A stretch of 60,616 nucleotides of DNA. Source: a virus. This document shows positions 4,594 through 27,013 of this stretch, in pieces; within the stretch, counting starts at the first letter, position 1; every line of letters starts with the position of its first letter. A program made the position numbers and the translations under genes. The stretch lies in the IMG/VR virus record IMGVR_UViG_3300037258_000413, positions 1 through 60,616 of that record; one strand, 5' to 3'. Below the pieces are notes generated by a model. The model was not told the origin of the DNA. It ran no database searches and saw nothing but the letters and a program-made list of their open reading frames with translations.

Positions 4594-6018
4594 ATGGAGC
4601 AGCATCTACGAGCCTTCATCTATGACCGGACGTCGCGCGACATCAGCGGCCGCGGCACCGCGAACCGCGACCAGAACATCGAGAACGAGCGGCTGTGCCG
4701 CGAGTACGGCTGGGAGATCGTCGCCCGGTTCAGCGACGCCGGGAAGGGCGCCTCCCGCCATGCACGGAGCAAGCGCCGGGACTACGAGGAGATGGTCGAG
4801 CGCCTCCAGCGCCGTGAGGCCGACGTGCTCGTCGTGTGGGAGGCCTCCCGCGCCTACCGCGATCTCGAGGTGTACGTGCAGCTGCGCAACCTCTGCACAC
4901 GCCACAGGGTGCTGCTGTGCTACGACGGCACCGTCTACGACATGACGCGCAGCGAGGACCGGTACCGCACCGGCCAAGACGCCCTCCAGGCCGAGCGGGA
5001 GGCGGACAAAATCCGCGACCGGGTGCTGCGCACGACTCGCCTGAACGCCGAGCGGGGCCGTCCCCACGGGCGCACGCCTTACGGCTACCGGCGCGTGTAC
5101 GACCAGGACACGGGCGAGTTGCTCGAGCAGGTTCCGGACGAGCAGCAGGCGCCGATCGTGAGGGAGATCGCGGAGCGGGCCGCCGGCGGTCAGTCGCTCT
5201 ACGGGATCGCCCAGGATCTGAACGACCGGGGCGTGCCGGGCCCGTCGGGCGCCCGTTGGATGCCCGAGGTGCTGCCGGACCTCATCACGAAGCCGACGTA
5301 CATCGCCAAGCGGCAGCACCAGGGCATCGTGATCGGTGACGCGACGTGGAAGCCGATCCTCACGGAGGAGGTCTACTACGCCTGCGTGACGCTGTTTTCC
5401 GATCCTGCGAGGCTCACCGCGAAGAGCCGTGCGATCAAGTACCTTCTGTCGGGGATCGCCAAGTGCAGCGTGTGCAAGTTCGTGGTGCGGCCGCGGCGTT
5501 CGTACGACCGCGAGAAGTGGTCGTACACCTGCGTTACCTGCTTCAAGACCCAGATGCGCACGCCGGCGCTCGATGACATCGTGACGGGCTCGGTGCTCGC
5601 GCATGTGGAGCGGCCCGAGTTCGTGAGAGCGCTGACGGCGGCTGCGGCCGACGATGGGGCGCGTGAGGCGCTGGCGGAGGCGGAGGCGCTCGAGATGCAG
5701 TTGGCCGAGGCGCGGGAGCTGGCGGGCCGGTTCGCGAACGGCCGCATGGCGCTCTCGGCGCTCTCGCTGGCGAAGATGGAGCAGGAGTTGGGGCCGAGGA
5801 TCGAGGGGGCGCGCCAGCGGGCGCAGGCGGTGACCGTGCCGCAGTCTCTGCGGCAGATCGCGGGTCCCGGCGCGCGGGAGCGCTGGGCCGTGATGGAGCA
5901 GGACCTCGTATGGCGGCGCGCGGTGGTGAAGTCGGTGGTGGTGCCGTGGCTCAATCCTGCGGGCAAGGGGGTGCGCACCATCAAGCCGGGCCGCTACGAC
6001 CTGGAGTGGCTGTACTGA
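4594..6018 (+). CDS. int: Large serine integrase (site-specific recombinase)
   Basis: 474 residues. The N-terminal resolvase domain has the catalytic motif YDRTS with nucleophile Ser14, and a conserved arginine cluster follows. A recombinase domain (about 155-285, starting RPHGRTPYGYRRV) is followed by a zinc ribbon (C291, C294, C313, C316) and an Ala/Glu-rich coiled coil (about 340-430). This is the usual order and length for phage integrases of the phiC31/Bxb1 class, which integrate phage DNA at attB. The ATG lacks a clear ribosome binding site. The candidate attP lies directly upstream. Confidence 0.95.
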   Translation: MEQHLRAFIYDRTSRDISGRGTANRDQNIENERLCREYGWEIVARFSDAGKGASRHARSKRRDYEEMVERLQRREADVLVVWEASRAYRDLEVYVQLRNLCTRHRVLLCYDGTVYDMTRSEDRYRTGQDALQAEREADKIRDRVLRTTRLNAERGRPHGRTPYGYRRVYDQDTGELLEQVPDEQQAPIVREIAERAAGGQSLYGIAQDLNDRGVPGPSGARWMPEVLPDLITKPTYIAKRQHQGIVIGDATWKPILTEEVYYACVTLFSDPARLTAKSRAIKYLLSGIAKCSVCKFVVRPRRSYDREKWSYTCVTCFKTQMRTPALDDIVTGSVLAHVERPEFVRALTAAAADDGAREALAEAEALEMQLAEARELAGRFANGRMALSALSLAKMEQELGPRIEGARQRAQAVTVPQSLRQIAGPGARERWAVMEQDLVWRRAVVKSVVVPWLNPAGKGVRTIKPGRYDLEWLY

Positions 6019-6252: not shown

Positions 6253-6651
6253 TTAAGCCCCTGAACGGGGGGGACGCGTTCCCTCGTCTGGGTGATTTTT
6301 CGCGACCCGGCGTCTAGCGATCTTGATGGCGTTGAGGATCATCTCGCGGTCGATCGGGTCCCAGGTCGCCCACTCCTTCGGGTCGAAGCCGGCGGGTGCG
6401 GCGTCGGCGTCGGTGGACGGGCGCGGGGTGGGGGTGCCTCCGTTGAGGATGGTGCGGATGCTGCCGCGTTCCCATTGGAGGGCGCGTTCGATGGTCGCCC
6501 AGTTGGAGTCGTAGGGGATCGTGCCGTTCTCCCAGGCGTCCCATGCGGGTCGGGAGACGCCTGCGGCGCGTGCAGCTGCGGATTTGGACAGGCCGAGCTC
6601 TTCGCGTCTGGCAGTGATCGCGCCGGCGAGGTCTGGGCCGGTGGTGGGCAT
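6253..6651 (-). CDS. XRE-family DNA-binding protein, probable immunity repressor
   Basis: 132 residues. The HTH domain spans about 8-65 (ITARREELGLSKSAAARAAG, then VSRPAWDAWENG). A proline-rich linker and a short helical C-terminal part (DREMILNAIKIARRRVAKN) follow. It is divergent from another XRE gene at 6760, and the 108-base gap contains two copies of a 15-bp repeat. This is the layout of a cI/cro-type switch; which protein maintains lysogeny cannot be told from sequence. Confidence 0.8.
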   Translation of the reverse strand: MPTTGPDLAGAITARREELGLSKSAAARAAGVSRPAWDAWENGTIPYDSNWATIERALQWERGSIRTILNGGTPTPRPSTDADAAPAGFDPKEWATWDPIDREMILNAIKIARRRVAKNHPDEGTRPPRSGA

Positions 6652-9069: not shown

Positions 9070-9410
9070 CGCGCGCCACGGACGCTATCGGCCGCTACCG
9101 GGCCGCGCGGGACTTGAAGCGCGGCGATCACGTGCGCCTCGGTGACGGGCGCTGGGCGCTGGTCCTCGACGCTGCGGTGAGCAAGAAGCTCGGGCACGCC
9201 CAGAACTCGCGGCCCACCGTGTCGGCCGGGCTCCTGGTGGACCTGCGCACCACGGAGGGCCGGGAATGGCCGGCCACGGAGCAGGTGTGGTCGCGCAGTC
9301 CGGCGCAGCAGGTGCAGTACATGGAGACCGTGATCGTCGAGGCGCGCACGGCGGCGCAGCTGGCGCGGATCGCGCAGGACAAGGTGCGCGCGGCCGGGGG
9401 TGCGGCGTGA
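9066..9410 (+). CDS. Hypothetical protein upstream of RecE-like gene
   Basis: 114 residues from a GTG with 4-bp overlap. It contains a KRGDHVRLGDGRWALVLD segment, possibly an SH3-like barrel, and a helical C-terminus. Translationally coupled to the nuclease gene. Confidence 0.65.
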   Translation: MTRATDAIGRYRAARDLKRGDHVRLGDGRWALVLDAAVSKKLGHAQNSRPTVSAGLLVDLRTTEGREWPATEQVWSRSPAQQVQYMETVIVEARTAAQLARIAQDKVRAAGGAA

Positions 9411-10282
9411 CGCTCATCGATGAGGAGACCGAAGCGCCGGCGGTCCCGGAGGTCGAGATCACCGGGCCCGGCGTGTACGACATGCCCGCGGACCAGTACC
9501 ACCGCAGGCCGGAGCTCAGCTCGTCGGGGATGCGCAAGCTGCTCGCGCCGTCGTGCCCGGCCCTGTTCAAGTGGGACCAGTCGCACGCGCAGCCGCCGAA
9601 GGACGAATTCGACTTCGGGCACGTGGCCCACAAGATCATCCTCGGCGCAGGCGCCGAGATCGAGGTGCTCGACTTCGACTCGTTCCGCACGAACGCGGCC
9701 CGGGACGCGAAGGCGCAGGCCTACGCCGAGGGGAAAGTCCCGATCCTGGAGCGCGACTACGCCAACGCGAAGGCGATGGCGTGGCAGGTCAAGAACCACC
9801 CGATCGCCGGTCCGCTGCTGACGGACGGGCGCGGGGAGCAATCGCTGTTCTGGAACGACCGCGCGACCGGGCAGTCGCTGCGCGCCCGGGTGGACTGGCT
9901 GCGCAACCCGCGCAGCTCGCGGCTGATCGTCGTGGACTACAAGACGACGACCAAGGTCGATCCCCCCTCGCTGGAGAAAGCGATCTACGACTTCGGCTAC
10001 CACCAGCAGGGCGCGACCTACCGCGAGGGATGCATGGTGCTCGAGCTCGGCGACGAGCGCACGGTGGTCAACCTGGTCTTCCAGATGAAGACGGCGCCCT
10101 ACCTGGTGCACGTCGTGCAGCTCACGCCGGGCGACCTGCAGCTCGGGTCGGCCCGGAATCGGGCGGCGATCCGCATCTACCGCGAGTGCATGGCCTCGGG
10201 TCAGTGGCCCGGCTACGACGAGGTGAGCCATATCGAGATCCCCGCTTGGGCTCAGGCCCGCGAGCAGTTGGAGTACCTGTGA
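9407..10282 (+). CDS. RecE-like / PD-(D/E)XK exonuclease
   Basis: 291 residues from GTG 9407. It shows the features of the exonuclease VIII-type PDDEXK family: ELSSSGMRKLL (about 36-46), FGHVAHKIILG (about 70-80), and the metal-binding set Asp163 (RVDW), Asp177 and Lys179 (VVDYKTTT). Such enzymes resect double-strand ends to give 3' tails for an annealing partner. That partner is probably encoded by the next gene, which overlaps by 4 bases. Together they would form a phage recombination or replication-restart pair independent of host RecBCD/AdnAB. Confidence 0.85.
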   Translation: MTLIDEETEAPAVPEVEITGPGVYDMPADQYHRRPELSSSGMRKLLAPSCPALFKWDQSHAQPPKDEFDFGHVAHKIILGAGAEIEVLDFDSFRTNAARDAKAQAYAEGKVPILERDYANAKAMAWQVKNHPIAGPLLTDGRGEQSLFWNDRATGQSLRARVDWLRNPRSSRLIVVDYKTTTKVDPPSLEKAIYDFGYHQQGATYREGCMVLELGDERTVVNLVFQMKTAPYLVHVVQLTPGDLQLGSARNRAAIRIYRECMASGQWPGYDEVSHIEIPAWAQAREQLEYL

Positions 10283-11244
10283 GTCAGCAGATGGAGTTCG
10301 CCCCGGCCGTGGCCGAGGCCGGCCGGGTGGGCCAGGGGACGGTCATCGAGCAGTCCCGCGCCATCGCCGAAGTCCAGGCCCTGGTGGTCATCGCGCGCCA
10401 GTACCCGCGCGACCGCCGGTCTTCCACCGTCCGCATGCTCGACGCGTGCGCGCAGGTGCAGCTCGCGAAGAAAGCGTTCTATGCGTTCCCGCGCGGCGAC
10501 GACACGATCTCGGGCCTGACGATCGACGCGGTCGCCGAGCTTGCCCAGGCGTGGGGAAACATCGACTACGGCCTGACCGAGCTGCGCCGCGACGATATCT
10601 ATGGGCAGTCCGAGATGCAGGCCTTCGCCTGGGACCTGGAAACCAATGTGCGGCACACGAGCAGGTTCATCGTGCAGCACGTGCGTGAGACCAAGCGCGG
10701 CAACTACAAGGTGACGAGCCCGCGTGACATCTACGAGGTCAACGCGAACATGGGCAATCGGCGCATGCGGGCGGCCGTCCTGAAGGTGCTGCCGCGCTGG
10801 TACAAGCTCGAAGCCGAGGAGGCTCTGAAGGCGACCCTGGCCGCGATGGTCAAGGCTGGCGGCAAGTCGCTGGCGCAGCGCATCGAGGACGCTGTCGCGT
10901 GGTTCGGTACGGAGTTCGCCGTCACCCGCGACCAGTTGGAGTACAAGCGGCGCCGACCGAGCGCGCAGTGGGGCGACGAGGACCTGGTGCAGCTTCGGAT
11001 CCTCGGCGACAGCCTGAAGCGCAAGGATCTGGCGCTGGACGAGGCGTTCCCGCAGGCGAAGGTGACGGCCGAGGAGCTCGCGCCGAGCCAGGAGGCGAAC
11101 CCGGGGCCCGTGGCGGACGCTCCGGCCGAGACGCCCCCGGTCGAGCACCTCGACCATCCCGAGGGCGACTGGATGGACGGCTGCCCCGGCTGCGTCGCGG
11201 AGTCGGACGCGGTGGATCAGGGGGCTGACGATGGCGACGCTTGA
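10279..11244 (+). CDS. Probable single-strand annealing (RecT-like) recombination protein
   Basis: 321 residues from GTG 10279, overlapping the nuclease gene by 4 bases. The core contains SGLTIDAVAELAQAWGNI, EMQAFAWDLETNVRHTSRF and SPRDIYEVNANMGNRRMRAA, followed by an acidic disordered tail (from about 265) ending in a CPGCV knuckle. Phage nuclease genes of this type are normally paired with an annealase, and an acidic tail is typical of single-strand DNA proteins. The family call is from pattern memory and context and is not certain. Confidence 0.6.
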   Translation: MSQQMEFAPAVAEAGRVGQGTVIEQSRAIAEVQALVVIARQYPRDRRSSTVRMLDACAQVQLAKKAFYAFPRGDDTISGLTIDAVAELAQAWGNIDYGLTELRRDDIYGQSEMQAFAWDLETNVRHTSRFIVQHVRETKRGNYKVTSPRDIYEVNANMGNRRMRAAVLKVLPRWYKLEAEEALKATLAAMVKAGGKSLAQRIEDAVAWFGTEFAVTRDQLEYKRRRPSAQWGDEDLVQLRILGDSLKRKDLALDEAFPQAKVTAEELAPSQEANPGPVADAPAETPPVEHLDHPEGDWMDGCPGCVAESDAVDQGADDGDA

Positions 11245-13859: not shown

Positions 13860-14114
13860 TCAGTCGGTGTTTTGTGCGGCGATCGCGATCGCTTCGAGGA
13901 CGGCCTTGGCGTTGGCCTCGACCCATTCGGCGAGCCATGCGGGGACGATCGCGGCGGTGCGCTCGTCACGGTTGGTGACGTAGACGATGGGAAGTTCGCC
14001 CAGGTCGCGGCGCGCTTCGCGGGCGGCCCGGGTGATGCGACCGAAGCGCTTGTAGACGTCGCCGGTTGCGAGTTCGTCCTTGGTCACTTTGATTTCCTCG
14101 GGTTCCTTGGTCAT
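13860..14114 (-). CDS. Phd/YefM-like antitoxin-type protein (orphan)
   Basis: 84 residues, transcribed against its neighbours. An N-terminal part with TKDELATGDVYKRFGRITRA, then LPIVYVTNRDERTAAIVPAW, resembles the Phd/YefM fold (helix, then strand with VTNR, then A-x-IVP). The C-terminal helix is Ala-rich. No toxin gene is adjacent. It may be an anti-toxin decoy or a transcriptional autoregulator. The family match is moderate. Confidence 0.5.
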   Translation of the reverse strand: MTKEPEEIKVTKDELATGDVYKRFGRITRAAREARRDLGELPIVYVTNRDERTAAIVPAWLAEWVEANAKAVLEAIAIAAQNTD

Positions 14115-14248
14115 GGCGGGAGTTTAGCGGGATCTCCTTGGCATCCTAGCTTGTCACGTGGTCCTTGTCTTGCTTGATCTGTACTTCTAGAACTTCAAGA
14201 ACTTGGATAAGATAGTCCCAACCATTCCCGATGACGAAGAGGAGCGAG
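14115..14248. promoter_or_regulatory. AT-richer divergent promoter region
   Basis: This is the least GC-rich stretch of its neighbourhood, lying between the Phd-like gene (left) and the initiator-like gene (right). TAAGAT at 14208-14213 is a good -10 candidate for the rightward gene. AGAACTT occurs twice in a row around 14189-14203 and may be a binding site. Confidence 0.45.
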
Positions 14249-15265
14249 ATGAGACTTGAGGAGCGCGCCGACGCCGACGGCAACGCGCCCCCCGCCGGCT
14301 TCGCGCTGTTCCGCGTCGGCGCCGAATGGCGGGCGTGCGGCTGCGGGAGCGCCGACGAGATGCGCGCGATCGTGGCCCTCCTGGATCAGCTCGCCGGACG
14401 CCCCGACGGCCAGCGGGTCGCACCTGAACCCGACACGCGCGCGCTCGCCGAGCGCTTGGCCGACATGACCGACCGCGACGACAGACCGGTGATGTGGAAC
14501 ATGGGCTACAAGCTGCGCCGCGAACTCCGGGAAGCCCTCGGTTCAGAGATCACCGGGCTGCAGCGGCTCGTCGCCCTGGAGATCGCGGACGACGCCAACG
14601 ACATCACCCGCATGAGTAGGGCCACCCTCGACGATCTGGTGCGCTGGACCGGCGCCAAGGACGGGAAGGTCGTGCGCACGATCCTCAAGCGGCTCGCCGA
14701 GGCGGGATGGGAGTTCCGGGTCCCGATCGACAAAGGGAAAGACGGTCGCACGCTGTATGCGATCCCGGGCAGGGCGTTGACGTTCCGGGTCCCCGAGTGG
14801 CCGGAAGGGGTAACCCCGGTTACCCCTTCGGCCGAGCAAGGGGTAACCGGGGTGGCTTCCGAAGCTACCGGGGTAGCCACCGAAGCTACCCCGGTAGCTT
14901 CCGAGACCACGGGGGTTACCCCCCTCTCCTCATCCCCTCAGAACCCCTCCTCTCTCTCTGGCCCGGCGCGCATCCTTCGCGCGGCCGCCGTCGTGGCCGA
15001 GCTGGAGGAGAGAGAACTCCTCGACTGGATCGCTAAGGCCTACAAGCCGCGCGGCATCGGCTGGTGGCGCACCGTCGCCCGCAACGGCGACCTCGCCGCC
15101 ATCGCCGACCAATGGCGCCGCGCCCCCACCGGGCCCGATCCAGACGCCCCCCACACCATCACGGCGCCCCCGCCACCCGAGTGCGTCGAGTGTCGCGTCG
15201 CAATCAAGGGACCGCTAGCTGCCGACGGTCTCTGCATCGAATGCCGAACGGAAGTGGACGCATGA
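14249..15265 (+). CDS. Replication initiator-like protein (winged-helix), lambda O-like
   Basis: 338 residues from ATG 14249, chosen because GAGGAG is ideally placed before it; an ATG at 14231 is also in frame. A winged-helix domain (about 105-182) contains SRATLDDLVRWTGAKDGK and KVVRTILKRLAEAGW. Residues about 187-225 are a Gly-Val-Thr-Pro / Glu-Ala-Thr repeat region encoded by palindromic DNA (see 14807-14922). A helical C-terminal part ends in a zinc-knuckle pair (CVEC, CIEC). The gene is the best candidate for the phage's own initiator; a host helicase and polymerase would be recruited. Function is inferred from domain layout and the internal repeats. Confidence 0.6.
   Translation: MRLEERADADGNAPPAGFALFRVGAEWRACGCGSADEMRAIVALLDQLAGRPDGQRVAPEPDTRALAERLADMTDRDDRPVMWNMGYKLRRELREALGSEITGLQRLVALEIADDANDITRMSRATLDDLVRWTGAKDGKVVRTILKRLAEAGWEFRVPIDKGKDGRTLYAIPGRALTFRVPEWPEGVTPVTPSAEQGVTGVASEATGVATEATPVASETTGVTPLSSSPQNPSSLSGPARILRAAAVVAELEERELLDWIAKAYKPRGIGWWRTVARNGDLAAIADQWRRAPTGPDPDAPHTITAPPPPECVECRVAIKGPLAADGLCIECRTEVDA
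14807..14922. other. ori: Iteron-like palindrome cluster; candidate replication origin
   Basis: GGGGTAACC occurs at 14807-14815 and 14840-14848, and its inverse GGTTACCCC at 14818-14826 and 14914-14922. GCTACC-GG-GGTAGC (14864-14877) and GCTACC-CC-GGTAGC (14885-14898) are two further palindromes. A pyrimidine-rich tract (about 14920-14958) follows. In lambdoid phages initiator binding sites lie inside the initiator gene, with an asymmetric tract beside them. The parallel is the basis of this call. Confidence 0.55.
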
Positions 15266-18839: not shown

Positions 18840-19090
18840 CCGCCCCCACTCCGGACCCGCGCCACCGTGCCGTCGAGACCATCGAACGCGGCCTCATGGC
18901 CATGGCAGGCGAGCCGCCCGCGTACCTCGCGCGCGCCCTCGTCACGCGCCTGGAAGCAGCCGGCCTCGTCATCCGCGACGCGACCCCGCAACGCCCGTGG
19001 GGCCGGTGCGAGTTCCACGAGCTGCCGCAGCCGTGCGCGGGCTGCGCGGGGGACGCGAAGGCCAAACACGACGCCGAAGAGGCAACCTGA
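18836..19090 (+). CDS. Hypothetical protein
   Basis: 84 residues. Helical N-terminal two thirds (HRAVETIERGLMAMAG; ALVTRLEAAGL), then a small Cys cluster (CEFHELPQPCAGC). 4-bp overlap with the previous gene. Confidence 0.6.
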   Translation: MTAPTPDPRHRAVETIERGLMAMAGEPPAYLARALVTRLEAAGLVIRDATPQRPWGRCEFHELPQPCAGCAGDAKAKHDAEEAT

Positions 19091-19446
19091 TGGCCGCGCG
19101 AGCCTCCGCTCCGGAGCTGTCCGAGGCCGCGTTCCAGCGGCGCATCCTCGACTTCGCCCGGCTCACCGGGTGGATCGTCTACCACACCCACGATTCGAGG
19201 AAATCAGAACCCGGATTCCCGGACCTCGTCGGCGTCAACGCCGAGCAGCAACGGATCATCTACGTCGAGCTGAAATCCGACCGCGGACGCCTGACCGGCC
19301 CACAACGCCGATGGCTCGACAAGCTCGCCCGGGCCGGCGCCGAGACCGCCATGTGGCGCCCCGCCGACTGGGATGAGGCCGTCGCCGTCCTGCGCGGCAA
19401 ACTCCTGCCCGTACCGTCCCCCGATAAGCCCCGGGAGGGCCCGTGA
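19090..19446 (+). CDS. VRR-NUC domain nuclease
   Basis: 118 residues, a stand-alone VRR-NUC protein. The PD-(D/E)XK core is visible: PGFPDLVGV with Asp45, then IIYVELKSD with Glu60 and Lys62, then RLTGPQRRWLDKL and AMWRPADWDEAV. Phage proteins of this family act as structure-specific endonucleases, possibly on recombination junctions. It lies directly before the WhiB gene with a 4-bp overlap. Confidence 0.88.
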   Translation: MAARASAPELSEAAFQRRILDFARLTGWIVYHTHDSRKSEPGFPDLVGVNAEQQRIIYVELKSDRGRLTGPQRRWLDKLARAGAETAMWRPADWDEAVAVLRGKLLPVPSPDKPREGP

Positions 19447-19853
19447 CCTCGCGCACCCCGCGCCCGGAACGCTTCAACATCACCCTCCACACCAGCGGCC
19501 GCCCCCGACGCCTGACCGACGACCGCGACTGGACCGAATCCGCCGTCTGCGCCGGAACCGACCTCGAGCTGTTCTTCCCCGCACCCGGCTCCCACGGCGC
19601 GCAGGCCAAGGCGGTCTGCTTCGGGTGCCCCGTCATCGAGGACTGCATCCTCGACGCGCTCAGCGCCCCGTGGCTCGACGGGGTCTGGGCCGCGACCACC
19701 GCGCCGGAGCGCGCCCGGCTGCGCACCACGCTGCACACCGACCTTCTGACCGAGGAGCAGCTACGCGTGTTCGCGGCGCGCTTCGCCGGCCACGTGCGTG
19801 CGCGCATCGACTTCAACCCGGCCCTCGGGCCGGACCGCGACCAGGAGGACTAG
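19443..19853 (+). CDS. WhiB-family iron-sulfur regulator
   Basis: 136 residues. The four cluster-ligand cysteines are C36, C59, C62 and C68 (C-x22-C-x2-C-x5-C). The turn GVWAATT at 80-86 replaces the usual G[VI]WGG. The C-terminal extension (about 95-136) is longer than in most WhiB proteins and has RVFAARFAGHVRARI as a basic patch. WhiB proteins are restricted to actinobacteria and their phages and bind sigma factor or DNA; a phage WhiB is known to alter host gene expression and septation. A similar host-takeover role is inferred. Confidence 0.9.
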   Translation: MTSRTPRPERFNITLHTSGRPRRLTDDRDWTESAVCAGTDLELFFPAPGSHGAQAKAVCFGCPVIEDCILDALSAPWLDGVWAATTAPERARLRTTLHTDLLTEEQLRVFAARFAGHVRARIDFNPALGPDRDQED

Positions 19854-19856
19854 ACC

Positions 19857-20135
19857 ATGGAAACGACGAACCCCGCGCTCACCCGCGTGCAACTGCGCAC
19901 CCTGCTCGCGGTCACCCGGGGCGAGATCTCCAAGCCCGCGCCCGGCATCGACTACGACGCCCATACCTGGCGCGACGGCGCCCGGAACGGCCGCGCGGTC
20001 ACCGCCCCGGTCGAGGCGCTCATCCGGAAGGGCTTCGCGCGCATCGCCGACGAGCCCGTCGACGACCGGGTCCTGGCGCAGGCCACCCCGCGCGGCCACG
20101 AGGCGCTCAGCCGGGCGGCGCACCGTGGACGCTGA
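19857..20135 (+). CDS. Hypothetical protein
   Basis: 92 residues; AGGAGG precedes the ATG. The sequence (RVQLRTLLAVTRGEISKPA; GRAVTAPVEALIRKGFARIA) suggests a winged-helix-like fold, without a firm match. Confidence 0.6.
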   Translation: METTNPALTRVQLRTLLAVTRGEISKPAPGIDYDAHTWRDGARNGRAVTAPVEALIRKGFARIADEPVDDRVLAQATPRGHEALSRAAHRGR

Positions 20136-25290: not shown

Positions 25291-25691
25291 GGACCGTCAA
25301 TCCGCCTCCCATGAACGCCGAGTGGATCGCCGTGCACCCCTCCCAGCTCGCCCAGTTCGGCGTGCTGTTCGGGGACGGCAGCACGTCGCACTGGTTCGGC
25401 CGCCCCCTAACCGGCATCCCCGCGTACGGCGGCTGGGACGTGAAGCCCGGCACGATCCGCGTCCACACCGACTCCGGGGACGTGAGCGTGCCGTGGAACT
25501 TCGCGACCCGCGTCCCGCAGCAGGGGCCAGTGTGGCGTGAGCCGGAAGCGCCGCTGCCGCCGGCCGACCCACCGCCGCGTAAGCCGGAGCGGGCGCCGCG
25601 TCGGCGTAACCCGCGGATCGGCTGCGAGCAGCTCGCCGGCACGTGGATCCACGGGTCGCCGCACGACTGCCCGACCTGGGCACGCGGGTGA
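25287..25691 (+). CDS. Hypothetical protein, tandem paralogue B
   Basis: 134 residues from a GTG overlapping paralogue A by 4 bases. Same core plus a basic proline-rich extension (PPRKPERAPRRRNPRIG) and two C-terminal cysteines. Overlaps the large terminase start by 4 bases. Confidence 0.6.
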   Translation: MRTVNPPPMNAEWIAVHPSQLAQFGVLFGDGSTSHWFGRPLTGIPAYGGWDVKPGTIRVHTDSGDVSVPWNFATRVPQQGPVWREPEAPLPPADPPPRKPERAPRRRNPRIGCEQLAGTWIHGSPHDCPTWARG

Positions 25692-27013
25692 GCGACACGG
25701 TGGTGCGGTTCGAGGCGCGCGGCGCCGTCGCCGAGGCCTTCAAATCCCGCGCCGGGGAACTCTTGCTCTCCGGCGCGGCCGGCACCGGCAAGTCCGTCGG
25801 CGCGTTGATGAAGGTTCACCTATCGATGCTCCAATACCCCGGCGCCCGCGCTCTGCTCGCCCGCAAAACCCACGCCAGCTTGACCGCGTCGACCCTAGTC
25901 ACCTACCGGCAGAACGTCGCCGCCGAAGCGCTCGCGGCCGGCATCGTGAAGTACTACGGCGGATCCGGATCAGAGCCCGCCGCGTACCGGTACACGAACG
26001 ACTCCGCGATCGTCGTGGGCGGCCTGGACAGGGCCAGCCGGCTGCTCTCGACGGAGTACGACGTGGTGTTCGTCGACGAGGCCACCGAGACGATCCCCGA
26101 GGACATCGACACGATCATCACGCGCCTCCGGCACGGTGTGATGCCGTATCAGCAGTTGCTGATGTGCACCAACCCGGGCGGTCCCACCCATCACCTGAAA
26201 GCCCGTGCGGACGCCGGACGCTGCAAGATCCTTTACTCGCAGCACGAGGACAACCCGCGGATGTTCCAGGACGGCGCCTGGACGACGTACGGGCAGACCT
26301 ACCTCGCCAGGCTGGAGACCCTGACCGGTGTCCGGTATCAGCGGATGCGGCACGGCCTGTGGGTCGCCGCCGAGGGCCTCGTGTACGCCGACTGGAACCC
26401 CGCGATCCACCTGGTCCCCAAGCTGCCGCCGGGCAGCGAGAAGTGGACGCGCTGGTGGGGCATCGACTTCGGCTACTCCAACCCGTTCGTCGTGCTCTGC
26501 TTCGCCGAAGACCCCGACGGCCGGCTCTGGCTCTACCGGCAGGTGTACTTCAGCCACCGCCTGGTCGAGGATCACGCGAAGAAGCTCCGCGCGCTGGTGT
26601 GCCCGAACGGCCAGTGGATCGAACCGCCCCCGCGCGCGATCCTCGCCGACCACGACGCCGAAGACCGGGCCACCTTCGAACGCCACTTCGGGATGGCCAC
26701 GCAGCCCGCGCACAAGTCCGTGTCCGATGGCGTCCAGGCGATGCAGGCCAGGCTCCGTGTGCAGCCCGACGGGCAGCCGCGCCTGTACGTGGTGCAGGAG
26801 TGCCTCCTCGAACGCGACCCGCTGCTCGTCGAGGCCAAGAAACCCACCTGCTTCGAGGACGAGATCGCGGAGTACGTGTGGCCGCAGGACGTGAAGCCCG
26901 AGAAGCGGGAGGCGCCGGTGAAGGAGAACGACCACGCGATGGACACCGGCCGGTACGTCATCGCCGAGCGTGACCTCGGCGCGCGCCCGCGCTACCGGGT
27001 GTTCCGCTACTGA
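25688..27013 (+). CDS. terL: Terminase large subunit
   Basis: 441 residues from GTG 25688, coupled to the upstream gene. The ATPase domain has Walker A GAAGTGKS (29-36), Walker B VVFVDEA (126-132) and a coupling motif region CTNPGG (160-165). The nuclease domain has Asp260 (WWGIDFG), the ADHDAED segment (320-326) and a C-terminal HAMDTGRY. This motor cuts and pumps phage DNA into proheads. The length is typical of the family. Confidence 0.95.
   Translation: MSDTVVRFEARGAVAEAFKSRAGELLLSGAAGTGKSVGALMKVHLSMLQYPGARALLARKTHASLTASTLVTYRQNVAAEALAAGIVKYYGGSGSEPAAYRYTNDSAIVVGGLDRASRLLSTEYDVVFVDEATETIPEDIDTIITRLRHGVMPYQQLLMCTNPGGPTHHLKARADAGRCKILYSQHEDNPRMFQDGAWTTYGQTYLARLETLTGVRYQRMRHGLWVAAEGLVYADWNPAIHLVPKLPPGSEKWTRWWGIDFGYSNPFVVLCFAEDPDGRLWLYRQVYFSHRLVEDHAKKLRALVCPNGQWIEPPPRAILADHDAEDRATFERHFGMATQPAHKSVSDGVQAMQARLRVQPDGQPRLYVVQECLLERDPLLVEAKKPTCFEDEIAEYVWPQDVKPEKREAPVKENDHAMDTGRYVIAERDLGARPRYRVFRY

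Follow-up and report, generated by a model that had tools for sequence, protein, structure and literature searches.

A putative lambda O-type replication origin within the initiator gene of an actinobacterial temperate phage and its close relatives

Introduction

In bacteriophage lambda, the origin of replication is located in the middle of gene O, with four iterons and an AT-rich region, and variants in Stx phages carry six iterons, the extra ones adding residues to the linker of the protein (PMC7466680). In the Bacillus phage SPP1, oriL lies within gene 38, and the loader gp39 and the DnaB-type helicase gp40 take part in the same system (PMC6316719). Among mycobacteriophages, an origin near or within repA has been suggested by analogy with lambda, in a study where no repeats were identified between the tail genes and parS-L (PMC7157519). 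For the phrog_270 family, we found no text describing origin sites, and in the open-access texts searched there was no description of an intragenic origin of this type in Streptomyces-type phages or actinophages.

Here we describe an array of repeated DNA words in the window, by which we mean the whole 60,616-bp stretch analyzed, an IMG/VR virus record of an actinobacterial temperate phage. Considering its anatomy and the comparative evidence, the array is very probably (with a probability of roughly 0.87) a lambda O-type intragenic replication origin bound by its own initiator. What the sequences themselves provide is an array that is conserved at the DNA level, occurs in a single place, and covaries with the recognition helix of the initiator.

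Results

The word GGGGTAACC was found at 14807-14815 (+), 14818-14826 (-), 14840-14848 (+), and 14914-14922 (-), and a word count over the entire 60,616 bp returned these four copies alone, all of them within 14807-14922, and zero copies of the reversed control word. A first-pass annotation, made from the letters alone, had called attention to these four copies (two direct, two inverted), to two GCTACC/GGTAGC palindromes, and to a pyrimidine-rich tract behind the repeats; the positions of the copies were confirmed, the palindromes were located at 14861-14880 and 14882-14901, and the tract likewise stood up to measurement, as described below. Overlooked in that annotation was that the GGGGTAACC words are half-sites of five 20-bp dyads (9+2+9) in helical register, starting at 14807, 14840, 14861, 14882, and 14903, with centre-to-centre distances of 33, 21, 21, and 21 bp. 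Dyads 1 (14807-14826, GGGGTAACC-CC-GGTTACCCC) and 4 (14882-14901, GAAGCTACC-CC-GGTAGCTTC) are perfect palindromes (9/9), and dyad 3 (14861-14880, GAAGCTACC-GG-GGTAGCCAC) is palindromic at 7/9 positions. Dyads 2 (14840-14859, GGGGTAACC-GG-GGTGGCTTC, 5/9) and 5 (14903-14922, GAGACCACG-GG-GGTTACCCC, 4/9, bearing the fourth copy as GGTTACCCC) are degenerate and, given this poor palindromy, were assigned by register. Four non-overlapping copies of a single 9-mer, counted on either strand, occur in no other 130-bp segment of the window, and such a segment arose in 0 of 100 Markov-1 simulations of the window.

The array is placed inside the replication-initiator gene (14231-15265, +), an open frame of 344 aa, right behind the stretch encoding a winged-helix domain. 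The gene owes its name to a weak match to phrog_270 ("replication initiation protein"; 19.8 bits, E 8e-4), which spans residues 100-221 and takes in the winged helix. On this weak family match, repeated sites are found within the gene of the initiator itself. Pfam returned no match for the protein of the window, nor did a tblastn search with it against 50,697 phage records. The core alignable to relatives begins at MGY (14501), and the equivalent starts in relatives have good ribosome-binding sites; the 90 residues encoded upstream in the frame of the window have no counterpart in close relatives. From this point, the alignment (A3) and an AlphaFold2 model delimit the winged-helix DNA-binding domain (14501-14806, +), modelled as H-H-H-H-E-E with a mean pLDDT of 70, rising to about 86 in residues 41-60, and with a predicted recognition helix at residues 55-67 (14663-14701). 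In a PDB fold search, the best matches were winged helices of the Fur/MarR type, with E-values that were not significant.

The C-terminal part of the initiator (14965-15265, +), as defined from the sequences and the family results, differs from the C-terminal domain of most relatives. It ends in CxxC...CxxC, a zinc-ribbon-like termination found also in L042, L043, and L044, whereas many relatives have an FWxxYPKK C-terminal domain instead. On the other side of the gene, the least stable 50-bp stretch of the region from 13.9 to 15.6 kb (14165-14214) lies between divergent genes and is likely to serve as promoter region for the initiator gene. The divergent neighbor upstream (13860-14114, -; 84 aa) had no PHROG or Pfam match, and its product, read by eye, resembles an antitoxin of the Phd/YefM type.

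Relatives were gathered by scanning viral contigs twice and genome contigs once. More than 30 distinct ones were found, and about 30 close ones (Streptomycetaceae prophages and IMG/VR records) keep the arrangement; those from the genome collection were mostly Streptomyces, together with Kitasatospora and a Catenulispora bin. Common to the close relatives is a domain of about 102 residues counted from MGY, and in those with a complete linker a run of 20-bp dyads stands behind it, with spacings mostly of 21, 22, 32-33, and 54 bp. Regarding the half-site words, most relatives use GGGG[TG]AGCC and GAAGGAGCC, the window and L005 share GGGGTAACC, and L042-L044 use GGGCCAACC. Dyads scoring above 12 bits, by matrices built from the arrays, are confined to the array in the window and in nine relatives, in two of which the sites scored as outlying (G004 and G007) were assigned to the arrays by their coordinates: the gene of L014 lies on the minus strand with its start at G004 19913, which places 19309-19400 at the distal end of its longer linker, and the L018 linker (about G007 19793-20003) is split by a piece boundary at 20000. 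Furthermore, a DnaC-like loader or a DnaB-like helicase was identified in 11/11 long relatives (six each, one with both), and in several of them this gene is directly downstream of the initiator gene; with the same profiles, neither was recognized in the window.

This setting bears on the possibility that the array serves as an operator for a winged-helix protein acting mainly as a regulator, which would bind within its own gene to control transcription while replication starts elsewhere. Such a role would suit a fold common to Fur/MarR-type regulators, and the iterons would serve equally well as its binding sites; nevertheless, we consider it unlikely, since the sites lie at least 300 bp into coding sequence and away from promoters, no further sites occur in the window or in the nine relatives, and the family is named for replication initiation and is accompanied by loader or helicase genes.

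Returning to the array as an origin read by its own initiator, the strongest evidence that the winged-helix domain would read these sites comes from covariation. Sorted by the base at half-site position 7, 26 loci were mostly G and five were mostly A, L005 being mixed (six A, three G). Across the approximately 102 columns of the winged-helix domain, A-core and G-core loci were separated solely by residues 56, 60, and 61, all of which fall within the recognition helix predicted in the AlphaFold2 model. At residue 60, all 26 G-core loci have N, the window and L005 have T, and L042-L044 have E, and the separation at column 60 is lost when L005 is replaced by any other locus. In the tree, where the forks are weak and the placement of the window is unsure, L005 nests among G-core loci; consequently, the change of core probably arose at least twice independently.

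The excess of repetition was also evaluated against synonymous recoding, keeping the same linker peptide and the codon usage of the family. For the window, four 9-mer copies were obtained in 0.3% of trials (p 0.003), and 9-mer repetition was also above this null in many relatives. The number of palindromes did not exceed the null in the window (p 0.18) or in most relatives, because repetitive peptides themselves favor palindromes; palindrome counts were therefore set aside in favor of 9-mer repetition, codon phase, and covariation. In this context, a given 9-mer recurs on one strand of a single gene in different codon phases in, for example, L007, L008, L012, L014, L022, L025, and L028, and several relatives read the iteron word in two or even three frames. 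Moreover, dyad starts in relatives fall in frames 0, 1, and 2, their spacings of 22 and 32 bp correspond to non-integral numbers of codons, and identical iteron DNA yields different peptides (e.g., GGATATP vs. KGEPGLP). Since the same DNA word is kept in different frames, the conserved entity is the DNA and not the peptide; copies in different frames together with the excess over the synonymous null indicate that selection acted on the repeats as DNA and not as coding sequence.

That the repeats are a mere consequence of a repetitive, low-complexity protein linker is, in this light, highly improbable. The linker peptides are indeed repetitive (GVTP and SEAT in the window, SEGA in relatives), and palindrome counts alone stay close to the synonymous null, but one DNA word giving different peptides in several frames argues strongly against this explanation, as do the identical 9-mers in excess of recoding, the spacings that are not whole codons, and the covariation with the recognition helix. 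The proposal of the first-pass annotation that the peptide repeat (GVTP, SEAT) is a by-product of the DNA sites was thus supported. Its broader reading of a lambda O-like origin also gained support, since close relatives with a complete linker keep the palindromic iterons while their linker peptides differ, and among them no relative was found with the linker and without the palindromic DNA.

Behind the array, the pyrimidine-rich tract (14915-14964, +) is a candidate unwinding or strand-asymmetric element. Its 41/50 pyrimidines are the highest count in any 50-mer of the window, and most relatives likewise have such a tract following the array. The mean stacking energy of 14911-14960 was -1.473, against a window mean of -1.654, denoting a tract less stable than average and not AT-rich, with a modest local melting signal, and no AT-rich element was present after the array in the window. 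Cumulative GC skew, which had been put forward as a check on the origin, is maximal in the window at 14876, inside the array, but eight relatives were one-signed throughout, without a sign change at the array; as the maximum was not reproduced, GC skew was dropped as evidence, and it neither supports nor refutes the origin.

The remaining genes identified in the window comprise a phrog_95-type integrase with matches to DNA invertases as well (4594-6018), a minus-strand regulator (6253-6651), exonuclease VIII (9266-10282), a phrog_3657 protein (10282-11244) that we take to be RecT-like, VRR-NUC (18997-19446), WhiB (19443-19853), and terminase (25643-27013), a layout that is that of a temperate phage. 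Clustered inverted repeats occur at packaging (pac) and partition sites too, but it is very doubtful that the array is another cis site of this kind, with the terminase gene 10 kb off, an integrase that should make plasmid-type partition unneeded, and an array standing behind the DNA-binding domain of the initiator in every close relative whose linker is complete.

Discussion

Taking the array as a lambda O-type origin, we infer a course from initiator binding through unwinding and helicase loading to initiation. The winged-helix domain encoded just upstream would bind the 20-bp dyads, whose spacing is close to two or three turns of the helix, and an O-some-like complex would be built from several initiator copies bound there. 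Opening of the DNA next to the array would then follow, with the pyrimidine-rich tract as its probable site, and the replicative helicase would be recruited through the C-terminal part of the initiator. In most relatives, this recruitment may proceed with a phage DnaC-like loader or a phage DnaB, while in the phage of the window the host helicase is probably recruited, as we would expect for the type of initiator with a CxxC...CxxC C-terminus.

On a broader level, we lean moderately toward a family of actinobacterial phage initiators carrying their own origin in the linker, where the peptide would be largely a by-product, and in which residues 56, 60, and 61 would set the specificity of the iterons, switched at least twice together with the whole array. 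With site and reader in one gene, these loci offer a natural experiment in which the initiator and the whole array change specificity together. The array also provides a precise, testable model of an origin common to about 30 prophages and contigs, and could yield small replicons for actinobacterial genetics.

The C-terminal domain of the L007 initiator (L007:6526-6783, residues 175-260) matched 176 phage records by tblastn, from phages of Mycobacterium, Arthrobacter, Gordonia, and Pseudomonas with different N-terminal parts, which suggests a swappable module. Among the more distant initiators with the C-terminal domain of the relatives, some also bear repeats inside the gene. In Arthrobacter phage Kuleana, gp46 carries GGGGTGCAC five times, in all three frames (L079 1384-1488), and Pseudomonas phage CF183a carries AACGGGGTG four times, also in all three frames (L082 1310-1402); no such intragenic repeat was present in Prairie gp43. 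The repeats of Kuleana and CF183a are probably intragenic iteron arrays with a pitch of about 22 bp, not annotated as origins.

The RepA-like or HTH initiators from phages of Arthrobacter, Gordonia, and Mycobacterium share the C-terminal domain with L007, whereas their N-terminal DNA-binding parts and repeat words differ. With SPP1, the locus shares repeats inside the initiator gene, but those of SPP1 are direct, its unwinding element is AT-rich, and it possesses oriR as a second origin, while no second array was seen in the window. The likeness to the lambda origin lies in iterons placed centrally within the initiator gene and, in several relatives, in an adjoining loader gene; in contrast to lambda, half-sites here are G/C-rich and vary between relatives, a pyrimidine tract replaces the AT-rich region, and no P-like gene was recognized in the window. 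The likeness described here is one of anatomy. In brief, intragenic origins of the lambda type are already known, and this probable actinobacterial example shows with unusual clarity how a site and its reader have changed in concert.
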